Assembly: GCF_003236175.1 (NCBI RefSeq)
Contig: NZ_QKTW01000022.1
Location: 340,579 to 404,578 of the forward strand
Length of the DNA: 64,000 bases
Direction: 5' to 3'
Source of the DNA: Taibaiella soli
GTDB taxonomy: Bacteria > Bacteroidota > Bacteroidia > Chitinophagales > Chitinophagaceae
In this document: positions 2,238 through 49,574 of the stretch, one piece after another
Position numbering within the stretch: the first letter of the stretch is position 1
How the letters are laid out: each line of letters begins with the position of its first letter
Notes under the pieces: model-generated
Seen by the model: the letters and a program-made list of their open reading frames with translations, nothing else
What the model was told of the DNA's origin: nothing
Database searches by the model: none
Made by a program: the position numbers and the translations under genes

Positions 2238-2356
2238 AGCCTCCTCTAACTCCTACGAAGGAGGAGAACTCCAAACGCGTCCTTCGGAAAACGAGACAAA
2301 TTGACGTTTCACCAACTTAGAACGTACTACTTACAACTTAGAACTTAGAACTTAAA
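2236..2356. repeat. Repeat cluster inside the suf operon
   Basis: 2236-2272 is a copy of an intergenic repeat (AAAGCCTCCTCTAACTCC then GAAGGAGGAGAA) found inverted at 21061-21098. 2301-2356 holds TTGACGTTTCACC followed by an array of the word AACTTAG/AACTTA reading towards sufC. Nothing here looks coding. Confidence 0.7.
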
Positions 2357-7636: not shown

Positions 7637-8030
7637 GAGTTCTGCATTATGATTTGTGGCCGCTAATTTAGGGAAAAACAATGGTGAATGGTCAATGGTG
7701 AATTTTTGCGAGTGGTCAATTGTGAGTGGGGAGCGGGTGAAACGTGAAACGTCAAATGTGAAATGTCAAAAACGTAGAGACGTTGCATGCAACGTCTCTA
7801 GACCACACAATTGTATAATAACATGGTCATGTCGACGAAGGAGACATCCCGCTATAAGGATCAGGTTTTCGTGTCCCCCTGCCGAAGGAAGGGGGACAAA
7901 CGCGGGCTAACATGAGTAATTGACGTTTCACGTTTCACCATTGACCATTCACCATTCACCACTGCTTCAGTCTCAGCGCGTTGTTCTCTTCAAATTTCCT
8001 TCAAAAACTCCTGCTTACCTTTGTAACCGT
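7637..8030. repeat. Composite intergenic element: inverted word arrays around a palindrome
   Basis: The left arm (about 7681-7773) carries GTGAATGGTCAATGG and GTGAAACGTGAAACGTCAA words. The right arm (7920-7962) carries their reverse complement (TTGACGTTTCACG, CCATTGACCATTCACC). Between them is a perfect 26-nt palindrome (7775-7800, half-site TAGAGACGTTGCA) and a CCCCCTGCCGAAGG / GGGGGAC segment. Each arm reads in the sense direction of the gene next to it. No coding signal. Confidence 0.75.
8016..8023 (+). promoter_or_regulatory. Candidate -7 box of the two-component/efflux operon
   Basis: TACCTTTG matches TAnnTTTG and lies 7 nt before the ATG at 8031, implying a very short or absent leader. 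No clear -33 element was seen. Confidence 0.4.
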
Positions 8031-27858: not shown

Positions 27859-28022
27859 AATAAAGTGCAACGCTTGAGTCAGTGATCAAAAAATCAGATC
27901 TCGCAATCCTGCTGACATACTGTTGTCATTCGCTATTCGTTATTTTGTTCTGATCGTGTTATTGTGACCGTATTTACAACTCACAATTCGGGTTTTGACT
28001 TTTGAATTTTTACTTTTGAATT

Positions 28023-30919: not shown

Positions 30920-31276
30920 ATGAAAAGAATTATCATTGTTGACGACGACCCTGGGCTCAGGGATGCATACGGGGCCATATTAAATGAAAATGAGTACCAG
31001 CTTGTTTTCTACAGTGATGCAATGCCAGTACTCAACCATGAATTCGAGCGCCCTGATCTTTTTTTATTGGATAAGCAATTATCTGGTGTAGATGGTCTTG
31101 ATGTGTGCCGGTTCCTCAAAAACGATAAGGAAACCAGCGATATTCCGATAATTATGTTGTCTGCAAGTCCGGCTATAGAGCGACTTGCCGCAGATGCGGG
31201 CGCCGATTTTGCGTTGGAGAAACCATTTAACATCAATGCATTGAGGGAAATGGTAAACAATTGCTTACCGAAATAG
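30920..31276 (+). CDS. Single-domain response regulator (CheY-like)
   Basis: A 118-aa receiver without an output domain. Acidic pocket residues are IIIVDDDPG (Asp8-Asp10), the phosphorylation site is Asp51 in LFLLDKQLSG, with Ser81 (MLSAS) and Lys101 (LEKPF). It is divergent from the PAS kinase (166 nt apart). It probably acts through protein contacts or as a phosphorelay intermediate. Confidence 0.92.
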   Translation: MKRIIIVDDDPGLRDAYGAILNENEYQLVFYSDAMPVLNHEFERPDLFLLDKQLSGVDGLDVCRFLKNDKETSDIPIIMLSASPAIERLAADAGADFALEKPFNINALREMVNNCLPK

Positions 31277-31292
31277 CTTAAAGTTTAGCGTT

Positions 31293-31961
31293 TTATCGTA
31301 CTATAAAATTTACAACGTTAGATGGATTATTGTGGATATACAACTGCAGGCTATAACGGCCCGGCGGTAGTTTTCCTTTTTTTAACTGAGCTTCATCAAA
31401 AACGGCTAATGTATTGACTGGATAACCTTTCATAATCCATTCTCCCGGCCCCAGATTATAATAATAACGCTCCAGGTCTTTAACGGGTTGCTTTGGAATT
31501 TCCGGGGAATTATTTTTCGTGACGGTGCGGTTCTGCGCATTTGTAATGACACATTGCTCCGCCCAGATACCGCCGGATGCGGGAATAGGCCGGTCAAACA
31601 GGAAACGCTGCGCGTGGTAGCTTTTGTTGGTAATGGTAATATACAAACGCAGATCTGCAATGTCGTAGACTACATTTTTGGCGCAGGAAATCTTTATCTG
31701 CAGTGGCACACCGCCGGGTTGACTGGTTCCGGAAACCAATACCAGCGATCGTTTTACAGAATCAGCTTTTGCCGCGCGCATATGGTATATACGCGTGCTG
31801 TCATAAGTAATTTTAAGGTGTTTGTACTTTGTGCTGTTTTTGCTGACGGGGATATAAGTGGTGTCGGTTTTGAGCAGGTAGTTGTTCGTGGTGTGACTTT
31901 GGGCAAAATTGAGGTAAGAGATACACAAAAAGAAAAGTAAACACGCAATCAGTCTTGTCAT
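31293..31961 (-). CDS. Secreted protein of unknown function
   Basis: 222 aa with a signal peptide (LIACLLFFLCISYLNFAQ) and then a beta-rich sequence: VPLQIKISCAKNVVYDIADLRLYITITNKS resembles an immunoglobulin-like or intracellular-proteinase-inhibitor-like fold, and LPPGRYSLQLYIHNNPSNVVNFIVR is a typical closing strand pair. Two cysteines in the mature part. No family assigned. It is convergent with the receiver gene, only 16 nt away, and preceded by an AACTTA-type word array. Confidence 0.7.
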   Translation of the reverse strand: MTRLIACLLFFLCISYLNFAQSHTTNNYLLKTDTTYIPVSKNSTKYKHLKITYDSTRIYHMRAAKADSVKRSLVLVSGTSQPGGVPLQIKISCAKNVVYDIADLRLYITITNKSYHAQRFLFDRPIPASGGIWAEQCVITNAQNRTVTKNNSPEIPKQPVKDLERYYYNLGPGEWIMKGYPVNTLAVFDEAQLKKGKLPPGRYSLQLYIHNNPSNVVNFIVR

Positions 31962-32197
31962 ATATCGGGTTATTGCAAATACCGCGCCACCGGTCTTTCG
32001 CGGTTGTAAGTTATAAGTTTTAAGTTATTAGTTGTACGCATTAAGGTATAAGTTCAAAGCGTAAACCTCAGGCTCAAAACCAAAAGCCAGCGAGTTTGGG
32101 CTAAGAGCAGAAAAAAGAAGAGACGCTGCGTATGCAACGTCTCTATGCTTTTATAGTCGTACAACTTAAAACGTACAACTTCGAACTTGTAATTTCA
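31962..32197. repeat. Second composite element: inverted AACTTA arrays around a palindrome
   Basis: The left arm (about 31998-32060) holds GTTATAAGTTTTAAGTTATT words, i.e. AACTTA in minus-strand sense. The right arm (32158-32190) holds ACAACTTAAAACGTACAACTT. Between them a 26-nt imperfect palindrome (32119-32144, AGAGACG .. CGTCTCT) matches the one at 7775-7800. Confidence 0.75.
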
Positions 32198-33139
32198 TTA
32201 ATGCAAGCCCATTTCACCCAGATAGCGTTCTGCATCCAGCGCAGCCATACAACCGCTGCCGGCAGCAGTTACCGCCTGACGATAGATTTTATCCTGAACA
32301 TCGCCGCAGGCAAATACACCTTCAAGATTTGTTTTGGATGAACCTGGCTTAGTAATCAGATAACCTTGATCGTCCATGTCCAGCAACCCTTTAAATAAAT
32401 CTGAATTTGGCTGGTGACCGATTGCCACGAAAAATGCTTTTACCGGAACTGTAGTTTCTTCACCGGTTTGAATATTGCGGATGCGTACTGCTTCCACCAT
32501 TTTATCACCCAGTACTTCAGCAGTTTCAGAATGCCAGTAAACCGTAATGTTTTCAGTTGCCAGTACACGATCCTGCATTACTTTGCTGGCGCGCATTTCG
32601 CCGCGGCGAACGAGCATGTGTACTGATTTACACAGTTTAGAAAGATAAAGTGCTTCTTCGCAAGCTGTATCACCTGCACCTACGATTGCCACATCTTGTC
32701 CTTTAAAGAAAAAGCCATCACAAACCGCGCAGGCAGAGACACCGTGGCCGTTCAGACGTTGTTCTGATTCCAGACCGAGCCATTTAGCAGAAGCGCCGGT
32801 TGCAATGATAACAGAATCAGCTTCGATCCATTTTTCTTCATCAATTTCCACTTTATAAGGACGTTGGGAGAAATCAACTTTGGTAGCCATTCCCCAGCGG
32901 ATATCCGCACCCATACGTTGTGCTTGTTTTTCAAAATCGATCATCATCTGCGGACCCATAATCCCTTCCGGATAGCCGGGATAGTTTTCTACTTCGGTAG
33001 TGATGGTCAGCTGTCCACCCGGTTGCAGACCCTGGTACAATACAGGTTTTAAATTCGCGCGTGATGCATAAATTGCTGCAGTGTATCCAGCCGGTCCAGA
33101 GCCTATGATGAGGCAGTGGACTTTTTCAGTTTCAGCCAT
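32198..33139 (-). CDS. trxB: Thioredoxin-disulfide reductase
   Basis: An FAD/NADPH enzyme that keeps thioredoxin reduced in the cytoplasm. The FAD motif GSGPAGYTAAIYASRA is at the N-terminus, the redox CAVC pair is Cys137/Cys140 (SACAVCDGFFF), the NADPH motif is VGAGDTACEEA, and the C-terminal FAD site includes GVFACGDVQDKIYRQAVTAAGSGCMAA (described in pieces). 313 aa, normal length. Just upstream lies the 21-bp repeat ORF. Confidence 0.97.
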   Translation of the reverse strand: MAETEKVHCLIIGSGPAGYTAAIYASRANLKPVLYQGLQPGGQLTITTEVENYPGYPEGIMGPQMMIDFEKQAQRMGADIRWGMATKVDFSQRPYKVEIDEEKWIEADSVIIATGASAKWLGLESEQRLNGHGVSACAVCDGFFFKGQDVAIVGAGDTACEEALYLSKLCKSVHMLVRRGEMRASKVMQDRVLATENITVYWHSETAEVLGDKMVEAVRIRNIQTGEETTVPVKAFFVAIGHQPNSDLFKGLLDMDDQGYLITKPGSSKTNLEGVFACGDVQDKIYRQAVTAAGSGCMAALDAERYLGEMGLH

Positions 33140-33183
33140 GTTTCTTACAAAAGTTTATTTAATCCGGTAAAAATGCGAAAGAA

Positions 33184-33696
33184 TTACCGATGCAGCAAAT
33201 CCTCCGGGAAAGAATCTCTTGATAGCGGTATGTCGTTTCTTTGTTTTTTGGGAGAAACAAGTGTAGAAGCTTTCTGTTTTTTATAGGCTGTCAAATTGAC
33301 TCTTTTAGTATCAACGTCGATGCTAAAAGAGTCGAGCTCCATGCTCTGAGCTTCAATGTTTATGTTCAGAGCATCAATGTCGGGGTTTTTAGTGTCGACG
33401 TCCATGCTCAGAGCATCAGCGTTCATGCTAAAAGGATCAGCGTTCGCTCTTTTAGCTTCGACGTCGAAGTTCCGGGCATCAATGTTGATGCTTTTAGTGT
33501 CAATGTCGACTCTTTTAGTACCAACGTTCATGTTTGAAACCTCAACGTCCGAGTTCGGAGGTTCAACATCGGAGTTCAGAACCTCAACGTCGGAGTTTGG
33601 AGGTTCAACGTCGGAGTTCGGAACTTCAACGTCCGCATTCGGAGGTTCAACGTCGGAGTTCAGCACATCGATATAGAAGTTCTGTGCAGCGCACAA
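33184..33696 (-). CDS. Heptapeptide-repeat ORF over a 21-bp minisatellite
   Basis: 170 codons from a TTG at 33696, or 116 from ATG 33531. Eighteen 21-bp units encode heptads with the pattern x-[DN]-[VIA]-[DE]-x-x-[NSR], e.g. SDVEPPN, INIDARN, FDVEAKR, MDVDTKN, then a non-repeat tail (KKQKASTLVSPKKQRNDIPLSRDS). The fourth heptad position is Asp or Glu in all but one unit (Gly) and uses GAA, GAG, GAC and GAT, so codons vary while acidity is kept; this favours coding on this strand. Against it: no ATG at the upstream end, the TTG abuts the purD terminator, and a 21-bp period keeps several other frames open. No known family recognised. Confidence 0.4.
   Translation of the reverse strand: MCAAQNFYIDVLNSDVEPPNADVEVPNSDVEPPNSDVEVLNSDVEPPNSDVEVSNMNVGTKRVDIDTKSINIDARNFDVEAKRANADPFSMNADALSMDVDTKNPDIDALNINIEAQSMELDSFSIDVDTKRVNLTAYKKQKASTLVSPKKQRNDIPLSRDSFPEDLLHR
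33301..33678. repeat. 21-bp minisatellite, 18 tandem units
   Basis: Exact 21-nt periodicity across 378 bp. The conserved core is TCAACGTC (minus-strand sense GACGTTGA) in the second half of each unit. Units near the right end are closest to each other (GTTCGGAGGTTCAACGTCGG-like); left units are more diverged, suggesting recent expansion at the purD side. Confidence 0.9.
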
Positions 33697-33772: not shown

Positions 33773-35047
33773 TTAATTGAACTCGTATCCAATATCTCTT
33801 CTGAAGTATTTTCCTTCGTAGTTGATCTTGTCGGCGTTTTCGTAAGATTGTGCCAGCGCATCCTGGATAGTATTACCATAAGAAGTAATCGCAATTACAC
33901 GGCCACCGCTTGTTACGACTTCATTATCCTTCATCGCCGTGCCGGCATGGAAGAGAATACTGTTTTCAACATCGTCAAAACCGCGGATTTCACGGCCTTT
34001 TGGATAATCGCCCGGGTAACCTTCTGATACGAGCATTACTGTACACGCGGCTTTTGCGCTGTGTTTTACCGTCACCTCATTGAGTTCGTTGTCGTTCATT
34101 TTCAGAATCAGTGCAACCAGATCGTTTTCCAGACGTGGCATTACCACTTCTGTTTCCGGATCACCCATACGGCAGTTGTATTCGATCACATATGGATCAT
34201 TGCCTACTTTAATCAGACCGAAGAAAATGAAACCCTGATAGATGATGTTTTCCGCTTTCAGGCCATTTACCGTAGGCGTTACAATGCGGTCAATGACTTT
34301 CTGCATGAATTCGCCTTGTGCAAACGGAACAGGAGAGATGGCTCCCATGCCGCCTGTATTCGGACCCTGATCGCCTTCGCCGATGCGTTTGTAATCTTTC
34401 GCTTCTGGTAATATAATATAATTGGTACCGTCGCTCATCGCAAAAACGGATAATTCGATACCATCAAGGAATTGTTCAACGACTACTTTTTTACTTGCAT
34501 CGCCAAACTGCGCTTCCTTAATCATGGAATTGAAAGTCTCCAGCGCTTCTTCGGTGCTTTGCGCAATTACTACACCTTTACCTGCAGCCAGGCCATCCGC
34601 TTTCAGTACGATTGGCAGGCTGTGTTGTTTCAGATAAGCCACACCTTCGTCGAAATTAGCGTCATTAAATTCGCGATAAGCCGCTGTTGGAATATTGTGA
34701 CGCTCCATGAATTTTTTGGAGAACGCTTTGCTGCCTTCCAGTTGCGCGCCTTCTTTCGAAGGACCGGCAACAATAATATGTTTTATTTGTTCGTCGTTTT
34801 TTACGAAATCGTAAATGCCATTTACCAGCGGATCTTCAGAACCCGGGAAAAGAATATCGATTTTGTTCTCAAGACAAAAAGTCTTGATGGCTTCAAAATC
34901 ATTTACAGATATAGAAATATTAGTGCCATAAGAAGCGGTGCCTGCGTTGCCGGGAGCGATGTAAAGCTCTTTGCAGAGCGGACTTTGTTTCAGTTTCCAT
35001 GCCAGCGTACACTCGCGGCCACCCGAACCAAGAAGGAGGATATTCAT
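33773..35047 (-). CDS. purD: Phosphoribosylamine-glycine ligase
   Basis: GARS: ATP-dependent ligation of glycine to phosphoribosylamine in purine synthesis. The N-terminal MNILLLGSGGRECTLAWKL is the PurD signature; the ATP-grasp core has LKADGLAAGKGVVIA, the metal/ADP region QGPNTGGMGAISP, and GFIFFGLI..YVIEYNCRMGDPETEVVMPRL. ATG 35047 is chosen because the signature starts there (upstream in-frame codons at 35059 and 35080 are less likely). 424 aa. Divergent from the POT transporter. Confidence 0.96.
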   Translation of the reverse strand: MNILLLGSGGRECTLAWKLKQSPLCKELYIAPGNAGTASYGTNISISVNDFEAIKTFCLENKIDILFPGSEDPLVNGIYDFVKNDEQIKHIIVAGPSKEGAQLEGSKAFSKKFMERHNIPTAAYREFNDANFDEGVAYLKQHSLPIVLKADGLAAGKGVVIAQSTEEALETFNSMIKEAQFGDASKKVVVEQFLDGIELSVFAMSDGTNYIILPEAKDYKRIGEGDQGPNTGGMGAISPVPFAQGEFMQKVIDRIVTPTVNGLKAENIIYQGFIFFGLIKVGNDPYVIEYNCRMGDPETEVVMPRLENDLVALILKMNDNELNEVTVKHSAKAACTVMLVSEGYPGDYPKGREIRGFDDVENSILFHAGTAMKDNEVVTSGGRVIAITSYGNTIQDALAQSYENADKINYEGKYFRRDIGYEFN

Positions 35048-35150
35048 ACTGTTTGCCATTGAGCCTGCAAAGAACGACAAATTTTGCCCCTTTTGGGGTA
35101 AAAATTTTTAGCTATCTTTCGCAATTCAACAAAAACGAATTTTTATTCCA

Positions 35151-37061: not shown

Positions 37062-37918
37062 TAAATAAATTAAATACAGTCAGACGACTTAAAGTCTTCC
37101 GACTGATTATAGAAAAAGGTTGCCTCTCGCGAGGTAACCTTTTTTTGTCACCCCGAGCGGAGTCGAAGGCCAATCGCTGGCGCGGATGTTCCGAAGGGCC
37201 ATCCGTGTCTGCACAATTCCGTCCGATTGCATCGGGATCTTTCTCGCAAAGGAGCATATGGTCTCTCGCGGCGATCTCAACGGCGCTATGTTTGTGTTTT
37301 AAACATTGGCGGGGCGGTTCTTTGTGCCGCTAATACAGTCAGGGATTTGAAGTCTTCGGACTAATTATAGAAGAAGATTGTCTCGCAAGAGGCGACCTTT
37401 TTTGTCACCCTGAGCGGAGTCGAAGGGCTGAAAATGTTGGTTTCACGCAAAGGCGCAAATACCTCTCACGGCGGCGCTAAGACGCAAAGGCGATAATCAA
37501 TATTCAGCGTGAAAACCTATTGCTCATAACTCAAGCTTTGTGCCGCTGCGAGCGCCGTGAGAGAAAAACTTTGCGCCGCTAATACAGTCCGACGACGTAA
37601 AGTCTTCCGACTGATTATAGAAAAAGGTTGCCTCTCGCGAGGTAACCTTTTTTTGTCACCCTGAGCGGAGTCGAAGGACTGAAAATGTTGGTTTCACGCA
37701 AAGGCGCAAATACCTCTCACGGCGGCACTAAGACGCAGAGGCGATAATCAATATTCAGCGTGAAAACCTATTGCTCATAACTCAAGCTTTGTGCCGCTGC
37801 GAGCGCCGTGAGAGAAAAACTTTGCGCCTTTGCGTGAAATTTAAACGGCGTGAAAAAATGGGGGGTACAGAAATAGCGAGTAAATTGTAAATTGGCCATT
37901 CGAAATCAAAAGCAATCA
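37062..37918. repeat. Triplicated about 250-bp repeat block with terminators
   Basis: Three tandem units begin with AATACAGTC at 37073, 37332 and 37581. Each has a CAGTC..GACTT/AAAGTC..GACTG palindrome, a GGTTGCCTC / GAGGTAACC-type hairpin with T tract, a CTGAGCGGAGTCGAAGG repeat, and (units 2 and 3, nearly identical) a long GGTTTCACGCAAAGGCGCAAA .. GAGCGCCGTGAGAGAAAAAC block. No coding signal. The block fills the gap between two paralogous transporters. Confidence 0.85.
37113..37144 (+). terminator. Intrinsic terminator of POT transporter 1 (repeat unit 1)
   Basis: Stem AAAAAGGTTGCCTC / GAGGTAACCTTTTT with a TCGC loop (one G-U pair). A copy recurs at 37621-37652; unit 2 carries a diverged, weaker version (about 37368-37403). 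Confidence 0.88.
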
Positions 37919-41176: not shown

Positions 41177-41670
41177 AACGTATGTTATTTTGCAGTTGGC
41201 AAATGTAAAAAATGTTCTGTAATAGAGGAATGTATTAAAAAATTGAATTTCTGTTTCAATTCAAAATTAAATATTCGAAAGTCAAAACGGTGGGTATAAT
41301 TTAAATGAAGTCTCCCGGTGGTCAGAATAGATGCCTGATAGTATTACTGTCGATGAACGGAGCGACGCAACGATGTTTAAACGGAGCGAAGTCGCCGGTA
41401 ACAAAAAATTAAAACAGATGACAAAGGACAGTTGACCTCCTGTGAATAAATCAATATAACGTGGGATGCCTCCTCCGCCGGCATGACAAACATAAGTAAT
41501 TGTCGTTCGGTGTTCGCGTTTGCCCAAACATGAACATTCATCATAGCCTTTTCATGTTTAATCCGGGCATTGACCGTTCCTCATTGACCATTCACCTTTT
41601 AACTTTTGATTTTTGCATTTCATTTAGTGAATAGAAAAACTATTTTTGTTTCGCTAAACAGCAACAAAGT
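41177..41670. repeat. Gene-free stretch with degenerate repeats and a promoter box
   Basis: It contains ACGGAGCGACGCAACG / ACGGAGCGAAGTCGC words (41355-41395), a GCCTCCTCCGCCGGCATGACA segment broken by variation, and a CATTGACCATTCACC..AACTTTTGATTTTTG array (about 41580-41615) reading towards the YfhO gene. TATTTTTG at 41641-41648 is a likely -7 box. No coding signal. Confidence 0.55.
41641..41648 (+). promoter_or_regulatory. Candidate -7 box of the envelope cluster
   Basis: TATTTTTG matches TAnnTTTG 22 nt before the ATG of the YfhO-like gene. The -33 region is not clear. Confidence 0.4.
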
Positions 41671-48604: not shown

Positions 48605-49293
48605 TGGCAGACGTCCATAAGGAAGAGCATTTGCGGAGTTCAGACCTGATCACAGATATTGTGATCGGGATGTCTGATGGCTTAACGGTGCCGTTTGCCC
48701 TCGCTGCAGGGCTGAGCGGCGCCGTTTCAAGCACCGCTATTATTCTCACTGCGGGCATTGCCGAAATCGCGGCTGGTTCCATTGCTATGGGACTCGGCGG
48801 TTATCTCGCCGGAAAAACCGAGCAAGACCATTATCGCTCCGAACTCAAACGGGAACAAGACGAGGTAGAAGCCGTTCCTGAAGTAGAAAAAGCAGAAGTG
48901 CGGGATGTGTTTGCTGAAATGGGTTTGAGTGAGGAAACACAACACCTCATTGCAGATGAAATCGCCAAAGACAAAGAAAAATGGGTCGATTTCATGATGA
49001 AATACGAGCTCGGTCTTGAAAAGCCAAATCCGAAGCGGGCACGGAATAGTGCATTGAACATAGGTATTTCCTACATCGTGGGTGGCATAGTGCCGCTGTC
49101 GCCTTATATGTTTGCGGCAACACCGCTTGAAGGCCTCAAATGGTCTTGCGTGGTCACCCTGATCTGTTTATTCGTCTTCGGATTTTTCAAAGCAAAAGTC
49201 ACCGGCCAAAATCCATGGGGCGGGGCAGTACGTGTAACCGTCATCGGTAGCGTAGCCGCAGCGGCGGCGTTTGGAATAGCAAAGCTGTTTTAA
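48604..49293 (+). CDS. VIT1/CCC1-family divalent metal transporter
   Basis: 229 aa. TM1 and TM2 carry the family motif IGMSDGLTVPFALAAGLSG and IAEIAAGSIAMGLGGYLAGKTE. A soluble, Glu-rich middle region (about residues 75-145, metal-binding domain in plant VIT1) follows, then three more TM segments (LNIGISYIVGGIVPLSPYMF; WSCVVTLICLFVFGFF; VTVIGSVAAAAAFGIAKLF). Family members export Fe2+ or Mn2+ from the cytoplasm or into compartments. The ATG overlaps the rocD stop, giving translational coupling. Confidence 0.9.
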   Translation: MADVHKEEHLRSSDLITDIVIGMSDGLTVPFALAAGLSGAVSSTAIILTAGIAEIAAGSIAMGLGGYLAGKTEQDHYRSELKREQDEVEAVPEVEKAEVRDVFAEMGLSEETQHLIADEIAKDKEKWVDFMMKYELGLEKPNPKRARNSALNIGISYIVGGIVPLSPYMFAATPLEGLKWSCVVTLICLFVFGFFKAKVTGQNPWGGAVRVTVIGSVAAAAAFGIAKLF

Positions 49294-49574
49294 ATTCAAA
49301 AGGCAAAAGTCAAAATTCAAAACCTTCTGTCATACTAGGCGAAGTCGAAGGGCAAAATTCAACACCTCAGAGGAGTCGTTCTCGCAAAGTCGCTAATGTC
49401 TCTCGCGGCGACACAAAGGCGCAGATTATGTTTTGACACAAACCTTGCGTGTGTTTGTCATGTCGACGATAAGAGACAACCCACGCCGAGATCCCCCTTC
49501 AGGGGCTAGGGGTGTCAACTGATTTGGCTTAATGGCTCTTTTTTGTTAGGTTTGAAGGAAACGATTTCAACGGA
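49294..49574. repeat. Intergenic repeats and promoter
   Basis: TTCAAAAGGCAAAAGTCAAA words at the 3' end of the VIT gene (inverted relative to the gene), a TACTAGGCGAAGTCGAAGGG repeat (49332-49351), CGCAAAGTCGC..AAAGGCGCAG words, GTCATGTCGACGATAAGAGAC, and a CCCCCTTCAGGGGCTAGGGG hairpin (49494-49513). Confidence 0.6.
49523..49554 (+). promoter_or_regulatory. Bacteroidota-type promoter
   Basis: TTTG at 49523-49526, 20 nt, TAGGTTTG at 49547-49554: the best match to the TTTG / TAnnTTTG consensus in the window. It precedes the secreted protein gene (ATG 49575) with a leader of about 15 nt. Confidence 0.65.

Follow-up and report, generated by a model that had tools for sequence, protein, structure and literature searches.

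The locus at 32 kb of the window (the whole stretch analysed, 64,000 nucleotides of Taibaiella soli) is a gap between two minus-strand genes, with an array of 7-base words at either edge and an imperfect palindrome between them (Table 1). The right arm lies behind the 3' end of a thioredoxin-reductase-like gene, which we take to be trxB, 5 bp from its stop codon, and the left arm lies upstream of the start of the 222-aa gene. The latter has no match in the 58 other genomes searched, and no orthologous gap was found for this locus, the genus being represented by one genome. Beyond the trxB-like gene, and before the gene at 33773-35080, an ORF (33184-33696) encodes a 7-residue repeat (PPNSDVE-like, 21-bp period); it has no Pfam match and is possibly a heptamer array that happens to stay open.

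Table 1. Coordinates of genes, arms and palindromes in the window.
Feature	Position	Strand	Basis
Left flanking gene, at most 222 aa, without Pfam match	31293-31961	-	ORF + Pfam
32 kb locus, left arm, seven heptamers TTGTAAG TTATAAG TTTTAAG TTATTAG TTGTACG CATTAAG GTATAAG	32004-32052	+	sequence reading, coordinates checked
TRF repeat, 14-nt unit, at left arm	32003-32036		TRF
Inward extension of left arm, other word type (CAAAGC, AAAGCC-like; family F)	about 32053-32088	+	by eye + word list
Imperfect palindrome AGAGACGCTGCGTATGCAACGTCTCT, 26 bp, diverged member of 30-copy set	32119-32144	.	sequence + pattern search
32 kb locus, right arm CGTACAACTTAAAACGTACAACTTCGAACTTGTAA; minus-strand reading TTACAAG TTCGAAG TTGTACG TTTTAAG TTGTACG	32158-32192	-	sequence reading
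Right flanking gene, thioredoxin-reductase-like, Pyr_redox_2	32198-33139	-	ORF + Pfam
7.7 kb locus, left arm, outer TGGTGAA/TGGTCAA words, then inner TGAAACG/TCAAATG words	7682-7770	+	
7.7 kb locus, palindrome AGAGACGTTGCATGCAACGTCTCT	7776-7799	.	
7.7 kb locus, right arm, reverse complement of left-arm word types	7919-7961	-	
Single right arm, AACTTAG words, TTGACGTTTCACC innermost, before gene start; without AGAGACG palindrome	2301-2354	-	
Right arm ending TTTTGACTTTTGAATTTTTACTTTTGAATT directly before ATG; without AGAGACG palindrome	27976-28022	-	
Right arm CATTGACCATTCACCTTTTAACTTTTGATTTTTGCATTT; without AGAGACG palindrome	41582-41620	-	
Left arm AAATTCAAAAGGCAAAAGTCAAAATTCAAAA beginning within TAA stop codon; without AGAGACG palindrome	49292-49322	+	

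Both arms of the 32 kb locus are built of degenerate TTNTAAG-type words in mutually inverted orientation, the left one being purine-first in the direction leading away from the left gene and changing to a different word type farther inward. Period 7 stands out in either arm (0.69 on the left vs. at most 0.40 at periods 3-6 and 8-11; 0.68 vs. at most 0.43 on the right). Compared with the reverse complement of the right arm, the left arm scored 19, against a mean of 9.0 (sd 1.8) for 1000 shuffles made to keep dinucleotides, none of which did as well, and the same comparison in direct orientation scored only 8. This bears out the preliminary description, which had read AACTTA-type words inverted around a diverged copy of an AGAGACG..CGTCTCT palindrome. 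The longest word common to both arms is 10 bases, a less exact correspondence than in other gaps, and the fold of 31998-32197 is modestly better than that of shuffled sequences (z -2.8; 2/200 as good). An Rfam search of 31200-33200 returned no match up to E 1, so no known structured RNA was recognised there.

Sequence reading of both loci shows one plan with different words at 32 kb and 7.7 kb, as had been proposed. At 7.7 kb two word types keep the same outer-to-inner order in both arms, which have an exact 21-base word in common, and the locus folds strongly (z -9.07; 0/200 shuffles as good). Elsewhere in the window, a 251-bp unit stands twice in tandem (91% matches) at 37320-37828, in a gap, and includes the string CACCCTGAGCGGAGTCGAAGG.

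A search of the 5.38 Mb genome (32 contigs) for AGAGACG-N2..20-CGTCTCT gave 30 matches (backward control 0), all of them intergenic by our own gene calls. By the word list, 16 of these copies lack an arm and two have both, the 32 kb locus being a third by eye; conversely, the palindrome is present in only 1 of 40 two-armed gaps, or 2 of 41 once the 32 kb locus, whose right arm the word list missed, is added. Arms that do adjoin palindromes obey one polarity without exception (8 purine-form and 0 pyrimidine-form on the left, 0 and 8 on the right), and arms are somewhat commoner in palindrome gaps than in others (7/12 vs. 154/529, p 0.049). Arm type looks independent of the palindrome, as had been suggested for checking: the core TAGCATGCTA adjoins words of families B, C/A and F. 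In a relative of the same family (G021), 23 array-bearing gaps have arms without this palindrome. The two-armed gaps, the armless copies and the G021 arms together lead us to reject the palindrome as a fixed core. The arms are the constant architecture, and the AGAGACG palindrome is one of several optional fillers.

Half of the copies (15/30) have GT before the palindrome and half AC after it, with both in 11/30, and this tag lies within the stem; 11 of the 30 copies read GTAGAGACG...CGTCTCTAC. In this reading, and in being intergenic throughout, the set may be akin to the GTAG-/CGTC-tagged REPs (PMC3733652), of which CGTC families are reported from Bacteroidetes, while the source passage reports no GTAG family from that phylum. 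It differs from RAYT-associated REPs as described there in that its tag sits inside the stem and in that it neighbours none of the transposase genes: the genome has four Y1 transposase matches, and no AGAGACG palindrome was found at any of their loci (L001-L004, 3.1-3.3 kb each, about 1.5 kb on each side), so that a palindrome belonging to a transposase unit can be set aside. We read the palindrome as a separate, REP-like filler.

Several loci in this genome deserve separate mention. At L001 (G000:C16:333409-336609), left of the window, a RAYT-like Y1 transposase gene stands between inverted copies of two other palindromes, one GGCGCGAGAGTTAGCGTAGCGCTCTCGTGT and one of ACAGTC..GACTGT type, and GGCGCGAGAGTTAGCGTAGCGCTCTCGTGT was also seen by eye inside a heptamer-armed gap (L044:17141). 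L026 (G000:C22:224600-235600) has three similar gene ends within 5 kb, each with a copy of one palindrome 8 bp behind it, and heptamer clusters follow two of them. AGAGACG..CGTCTCT hairpins whose cores differ, mostly preceded by A and followed by T, form a second group at L008, L016, L022, L025, L027 and L030; these look like ordinary terminators, unlike the GTAG..CTAC kind.

In 1.264 Mb of the genome, 767 gaps of at least 30 bp were scanned; they yielded 92 heptamer arrays with a score threshold of 11 and 78 with one of 12, and at this latter threshold lags 4-6 and 8-13 gave 0, 0, 3, 15, 15, 5, 0, 3 and 1 (2 of 24 lag-7 arrays of an early scan were runs of N, which later scans left out). As intergenic tandem 7-base units, these arrays qualify as STRRs, or long simple sequence repeats. 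Word clusters reach 1207 per Mb in gaps vs. 251 per Mb in genes, and those inside coding sequence are 127 in R (purine-rich) and 143 in Y (pyrimidine) form.

In gaps the arrays follow a polarity rule: on leaving a gene one meets the word in its purine-rich form first, no matter which way the gene points. The rule was first seen in the first 464 kb, where 37 of 38 arrays obey it; the subsequent 800 kb, scanned word-blind (score at least 11), are the cleaner and weaker test, the word families having been chosen after part of the data had been seen, and here 43 of 54 arrays are polar (p 2.3e-5). By the automatic measure 11/54 break the rule, of which some look like poor orientation scores (the purine score fails for words near 50% purine) and others are real exceptions. 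By the word list, polarity fades with distance from the gene, from 113/123 clusters within 30 bp to 52/70 at 30-100 bp and 19/41, i.e., none, farther out. Within 30 bp it holds alike in convergent (42/45), divergent (14/15) and codirectional gaps (57/63), the gene calls being those of our own script, with uncertain starts. A background purine bias at gene edges is ruled out because cluster-free gap edges are 51% purine.

The order of arms across gaps is as one-sided. In 173 gaps with clusters the order strings were 66 "R", 59 "Y", 31 "RY" and 1 "YR", so that loci with inverted arms of different words, the absence of which would have spoken against a modular element with variable arms, are in fact numerous. 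The preliminary description is partly supported in that its general modular architecture is right, and its fixed central palindrome finds no support.

The polarity by word family bears on two readings drawn from other bacteria. One, proposed for Xanthomonas and Nostoc, is that the repeats form G-quadruplexes and are placed to regulate genes; it would be attractive in that period, polarity and inverted pairs are alike there (PMC4692102). However, the word list of this genome contains no GGG, and polarity is strong in families B (p 4e-6) and D (p 6e-4), both without GG, as well as in F (p 1e-8; GG in 1/9 words). This refutes quadruplexes as the general cause in this genome, and we find this reading barely credible. 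It also seems highly improbable that the orientation reflects translation, with only those arrays surviving at gene edges that supply or avoid stop or start codons. In its favour, of the 39 arrays that lie no farther than 30 bp from a 3' end, 18 overlap the stop codon by one base or more, and only one of the two orientations of the TAACTGA repeat described elsewhere carries stops in every frame (PMC4679880). Against this, polarity is equally strong between convergent genes, and family B is polar (27/29 on the left, 11/14 on the right) with two words, AAAGTCA and AAATTCA, that are stop-free in all purine-strand frames; the remaining word, AAAGTTA, is not.

The two arms of a gap belong together. 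They share a word family in 26 of 40 gaps (15.1 expected, p 1e-4), whereas arms lying across one to three genes do so in 9/35 (12.7 expected), and those across a single gene in 4/19 (7.4 expected). Arms thus match within the gap and not across genes, and therefore the gap, not the gene, is the unit; a cassette reading in which arms belong to the genes they surround is ruled out. Exact shared words are longer within gaps than between them (p 7e-7 in this genome; p 0.035, just above chance, in G021). The inner sequence is free and independent of arm type: of 33 inner segments 20 match some other gap, and the 13 matching pairs among 528 share an arm family no more often than pairs at large (7/13 vs. 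348/528), so that no constant inner sequence within an arm family was found among these segments.

The plan recurs in relatives of the same family. In G021 long hairpins made of GGATGAC and GGATGTT words occupy many gaps (RY 12, YR 0; 28/36 arrays polar), and some gaps are a single hairpin between two stop codons and nothing else. Paired arms there contain exact inverted matches of 34 and 36 bases, and one 32-base arm string recurs in three gaps, as inverted pairs in L232 and L257 and once in L236. Over 80 kb shared with a congener, G346 (mean protein identity 69%), 7 of 40 syntenic G021 gaps carry arrays vs. 0 in G346. All seven are shorter in the congener (e.g., 171 vs. 23, 209 vs. 74 and 167 vs. 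51), the medians of all 40 gaps being 81 in G021 and 56.5 in G346.

These observations invite a reading as a mobile element with inverted ends (MITE- or REPIN-like), the arms being terminal repeats moved by a RAYT-like transposase. Since inverted ends read alike in either direction of insertion, such an element would explain the polarity at once and more simply, and the matching arms of a gap, the identical 32-base string of G021, the shorter array-free gaps of G346 and the four Y1 transposase matches would all be in keeping with it. An element should, however, have constant inner sequence and a tie between core and arm, of which there is little and none, respectively. Nor are the ends sharp: of the 39 arrays near 3' ends, 18 begin inside the stop codon and the others at other points. 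With, in addition, many single arms and no AGAGACG palindrome at the transposase loci, we consider an element unlikely.

One gap could be compared among three congeners. G009, G486 and G417 have the same gene pair around one convergent gap (the neighbouring protein is 95% identical between G009 and G486), in which both arms are of AAGTTGA type in G009 and of GAGTTGA type in G486, and G417 has 18 bp without arms. With arm limits set by hand, the two arms share 20 and 10 7-mers within the respective species and corresponding arms 0 and 1 between them; the adjoining gene is 87% identical over its last 300 bases and the whole gap 50%. Both arms therefore differ together between close congeners in the one pair of two-armed gaps compared, which, given the 50% gap identity, may also reflect two independent insertions. 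The words of this gap are common in their own genomes: triple GAGTTGA and triple AAGTTGA have 57+128 and 1+0 matches in G486, 16+1 and 17+11 in G009, and 0 and 3+3 in G417, the backward pattern here being the same repeat in another phase and thus no control. In another trio (G008, G551 and G537), an array-free gap is 88-95% conserved vs. 56-84% for two array gaps.

A function under selection, in the first place termination of transcription in both directions or an RNA hairpin where genes end, would account for several features. Word clusters are commonest between convergent genes (43/130, vs. 95/489 codirectional and 35/148 divergent gaps), the 32 kb and 7.7 kb loci both fold better than shuffles, and on the minus strand, i.e., that of the trxB-like gene, the palindrome AGAGACGCTGCGTATGCAACGTCTCT is followed by TCTTTTTTCT and so resembles a terminator. 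A terminator scan recovered this hairpin with its T-rich tail (32144-32119), in a stretch where it expects 0.5 such sites by chance. The 32 kb palindrome may also end transcription of the trxB-like gene, and a terminator role would fit it; such a role does not fit the divergent gaps, 24% of which carry clusters of the same polarity without any 3' gene end. Nor do the pyrimidine arms of G021, mainly GTCATCC and AACATCC words, have a T run, and the array gaps are less conserved between congeners than the array-free one. As a general cause, function is in our view quite unlikely.

We favour, with about even confidence, the reading of the locus as an "inverted heptamer hairpin" whose arms arise by slippage and fold-back template switching. 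The plan itself is that of gap edges carrying inverted 7-base words, with the purine-rich arm first on either strand and a slot between them that may be nearly empty or filled by one of several small repeats. The observations establish this anatomy, outward polarity at both kinds of gene end, arm matching per gap, independence of arm and core and, for one gap of close congeners, a joint difference of both arms. In such a scheme, arms would arise during DNA synthesis: slippage in steps of 7 would lengthen an array, and the nascent 3' end could then fold back and copy the existing arm, writing its reverse complement on the other side and keeping the arms alike. Occasional switching between dispersed arrays, needed in addition, could spread the prevailing words through the genome, and growth would halt at essential coding sequence, which might be why arms lie right against genes and frequently overlap the stop codon. 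Slippage by 7 with fold-back copying would likewise explain why arms match, why they can be exactly inverted over up to 36 bases and why they change jointly.

Hairpin stems are known to arise, and to be mended, through template switching of this fold-back kind (PMC8794818). The switching model does not by itself predict purine-first polarity; the purine-rich arm would be the older, template arm, and the asymmetry can only be named. The base-pair asymmetry published in the same source (G-C and U-A) does not match the A-rich 5' arms found here. Against the switching model also stand the many gaps with one detectable arm (66 R and 59 Y vs. 31 RY), and no mutational intermediate was caught. If both ends of a chromosome break were tailed with purine-rich heptamers by a terminal-transferase- or telomerase-like activity and then joined, one would expect purine-first order and matching words on either side of the gap, regardless of how the genes are directed, and all of this is seen. 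We regard such tailing as very unlikely, as two ends tailed independently would scarcely acquire identical irregular successions of words over 34-36 bases.

The polarity recurs to varying degrees elsewhere. Arrays were polar in G003 (6/6), G008 (1/1) and G009 (8/12), with RY 6 and YR 0, in 5/7 cases from four other genera of the family, and in 6/9 from G136, of another order (RY 4, YR 0; stretches chosen for pattern matches). Four tandem copies of GTSAANN were found in 105/244 genomes of the family vs. 59/296 of a phylum sample, and opposite-strand pairs within 600 bp, counted by eye among the matches listed, were at least 12 in R-then-Y and 0 in reverse order. Counts of overlapping pattern matches overstate array richness, as in G203, which is pattern-rich (113+88) yet has no array in the gaps of 160 kb. 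At 114 named loci chosen by word, with gene edges taken from the longest open frames, arrays within 40 bp of a gene fit the rule in 27/32 cases for cyanobacteria, 27/33 for other Bacteroidota, 16/22 for other phyla (p 0.09) and 26/35 for a mixed remainder; over all distances the figures are 39/51, 35/47, 20/31 (p 0.15) and 28/45, and the order is RY in 23 cases and YR in 2. The trend in other phyla is weak.

Heptamer repeats of bacteria have so far had no agreed cause, having been read as quadruplex or translation signals from single words in few genera. That the present rule applies to several unrelated words, at 5' and 3' gene ends alike, speaks against either reading. The rule offers a concrete prediction of how such repeats are made, and the recurrence of the arrangement points to a repeat-making process with testable rules; the rule also advises caution against taking each word family for a regulatory motif. 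Among the matches listed, no open-access title or abstract opening dealt with many-word paired heptamers in Bacteroidota, joint change of arms or the gap as unit.

Cyanobacteria provide one close parallel. In a Chamaesiphon MAG, L194:1927-2064 has a GGGACGC..GCGTCCC hairpin between a GGGGATA-type arm and a TATCCCC-type arm, which repeats the plan in another phylum, and L151 (Nostoc) contains an AGAGACG-type palindrome. SDR elements, as treated by Elhai in 2008, are said to sit often inside the STRR heptamers that Mazel described in 1990. Heterocystous cyanobacteria have intergenic heptamers such as ttgtcagttgtcagttgtca and an intergenic palindrome, csR2, agacgcgatt(c/a)atcgcgtct, in 34 copies (Nostoc hyp-operon, PMC2408588); paired inverted arms around a palindrome are absent from the source passages.

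TAACTGA direct repeats are known from Beggiatoaceae, cyanobacteria and five Bacteroidetes, mostly as single arrays, and have been read as a translational signal (MacGregor, 2015, PMC4679880). They resemble the present arrays in lying between genes, beside them, with a marked orientation: of 14 sets in Flexibacter litoralis, 12 point to a start codon and one follows a stop codon immediately in the reversed sense, which makes TCAGTTA, a word near the CAGTTGA words found here, the outward strand at both kinds of end (PMC4679880). The difference is that TAACTGA would, by purine count alone (4/7), run against the rule and fits it only by word likeness, and the Microcystis sample given in that source (6 sets forward, 8 reverse to the start codon) is not polar, also against the rule.

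Among the nearest known systems is that of Xanthomonas (GGGAATC) and Nostoc PCC 7120 (GGGGA(T/C)T), G-rich heptamers that have been read as quadruplexes (Rehm et al., 2015, PMC4692102). According to the passages of that source, inverted convergent pairs occur in Xanthomonas and few in Nostoc, with outward placement in both. The likeness to the Xanthomonas pairs is twofold, as opposite-strand arrays stand in convergent order here too (RY 31, YR 1; 12 and 0 in G021) and the array nearer the gene lies on its 5' side (113/123 clusters within 30 bp). It is tempting, if rather doubtful, to place all of these in one class across Bacteroidota, Cyanobacteria and Xanthomonas: self-renewing dispersed hairpins that would reach up to the last dispensable codon, purine-first, with one arm copied from the other and the vocabulary replaced genome-wide within a genus, made by a specific DNA-synthesis pathway and by neither a transposase nor gene regulation. 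The words set the systems apart, being quadruplex words in that source and here many word types without GGG. In T. soli and its relatives, moreover, arms match per gap, differ together between congeners and enclose an optional palindrome core, unlike what is described in those passages (PMC4692102). What is new relative to the Xanthomonas heptamers is the many, mostly non-quadruplex words.
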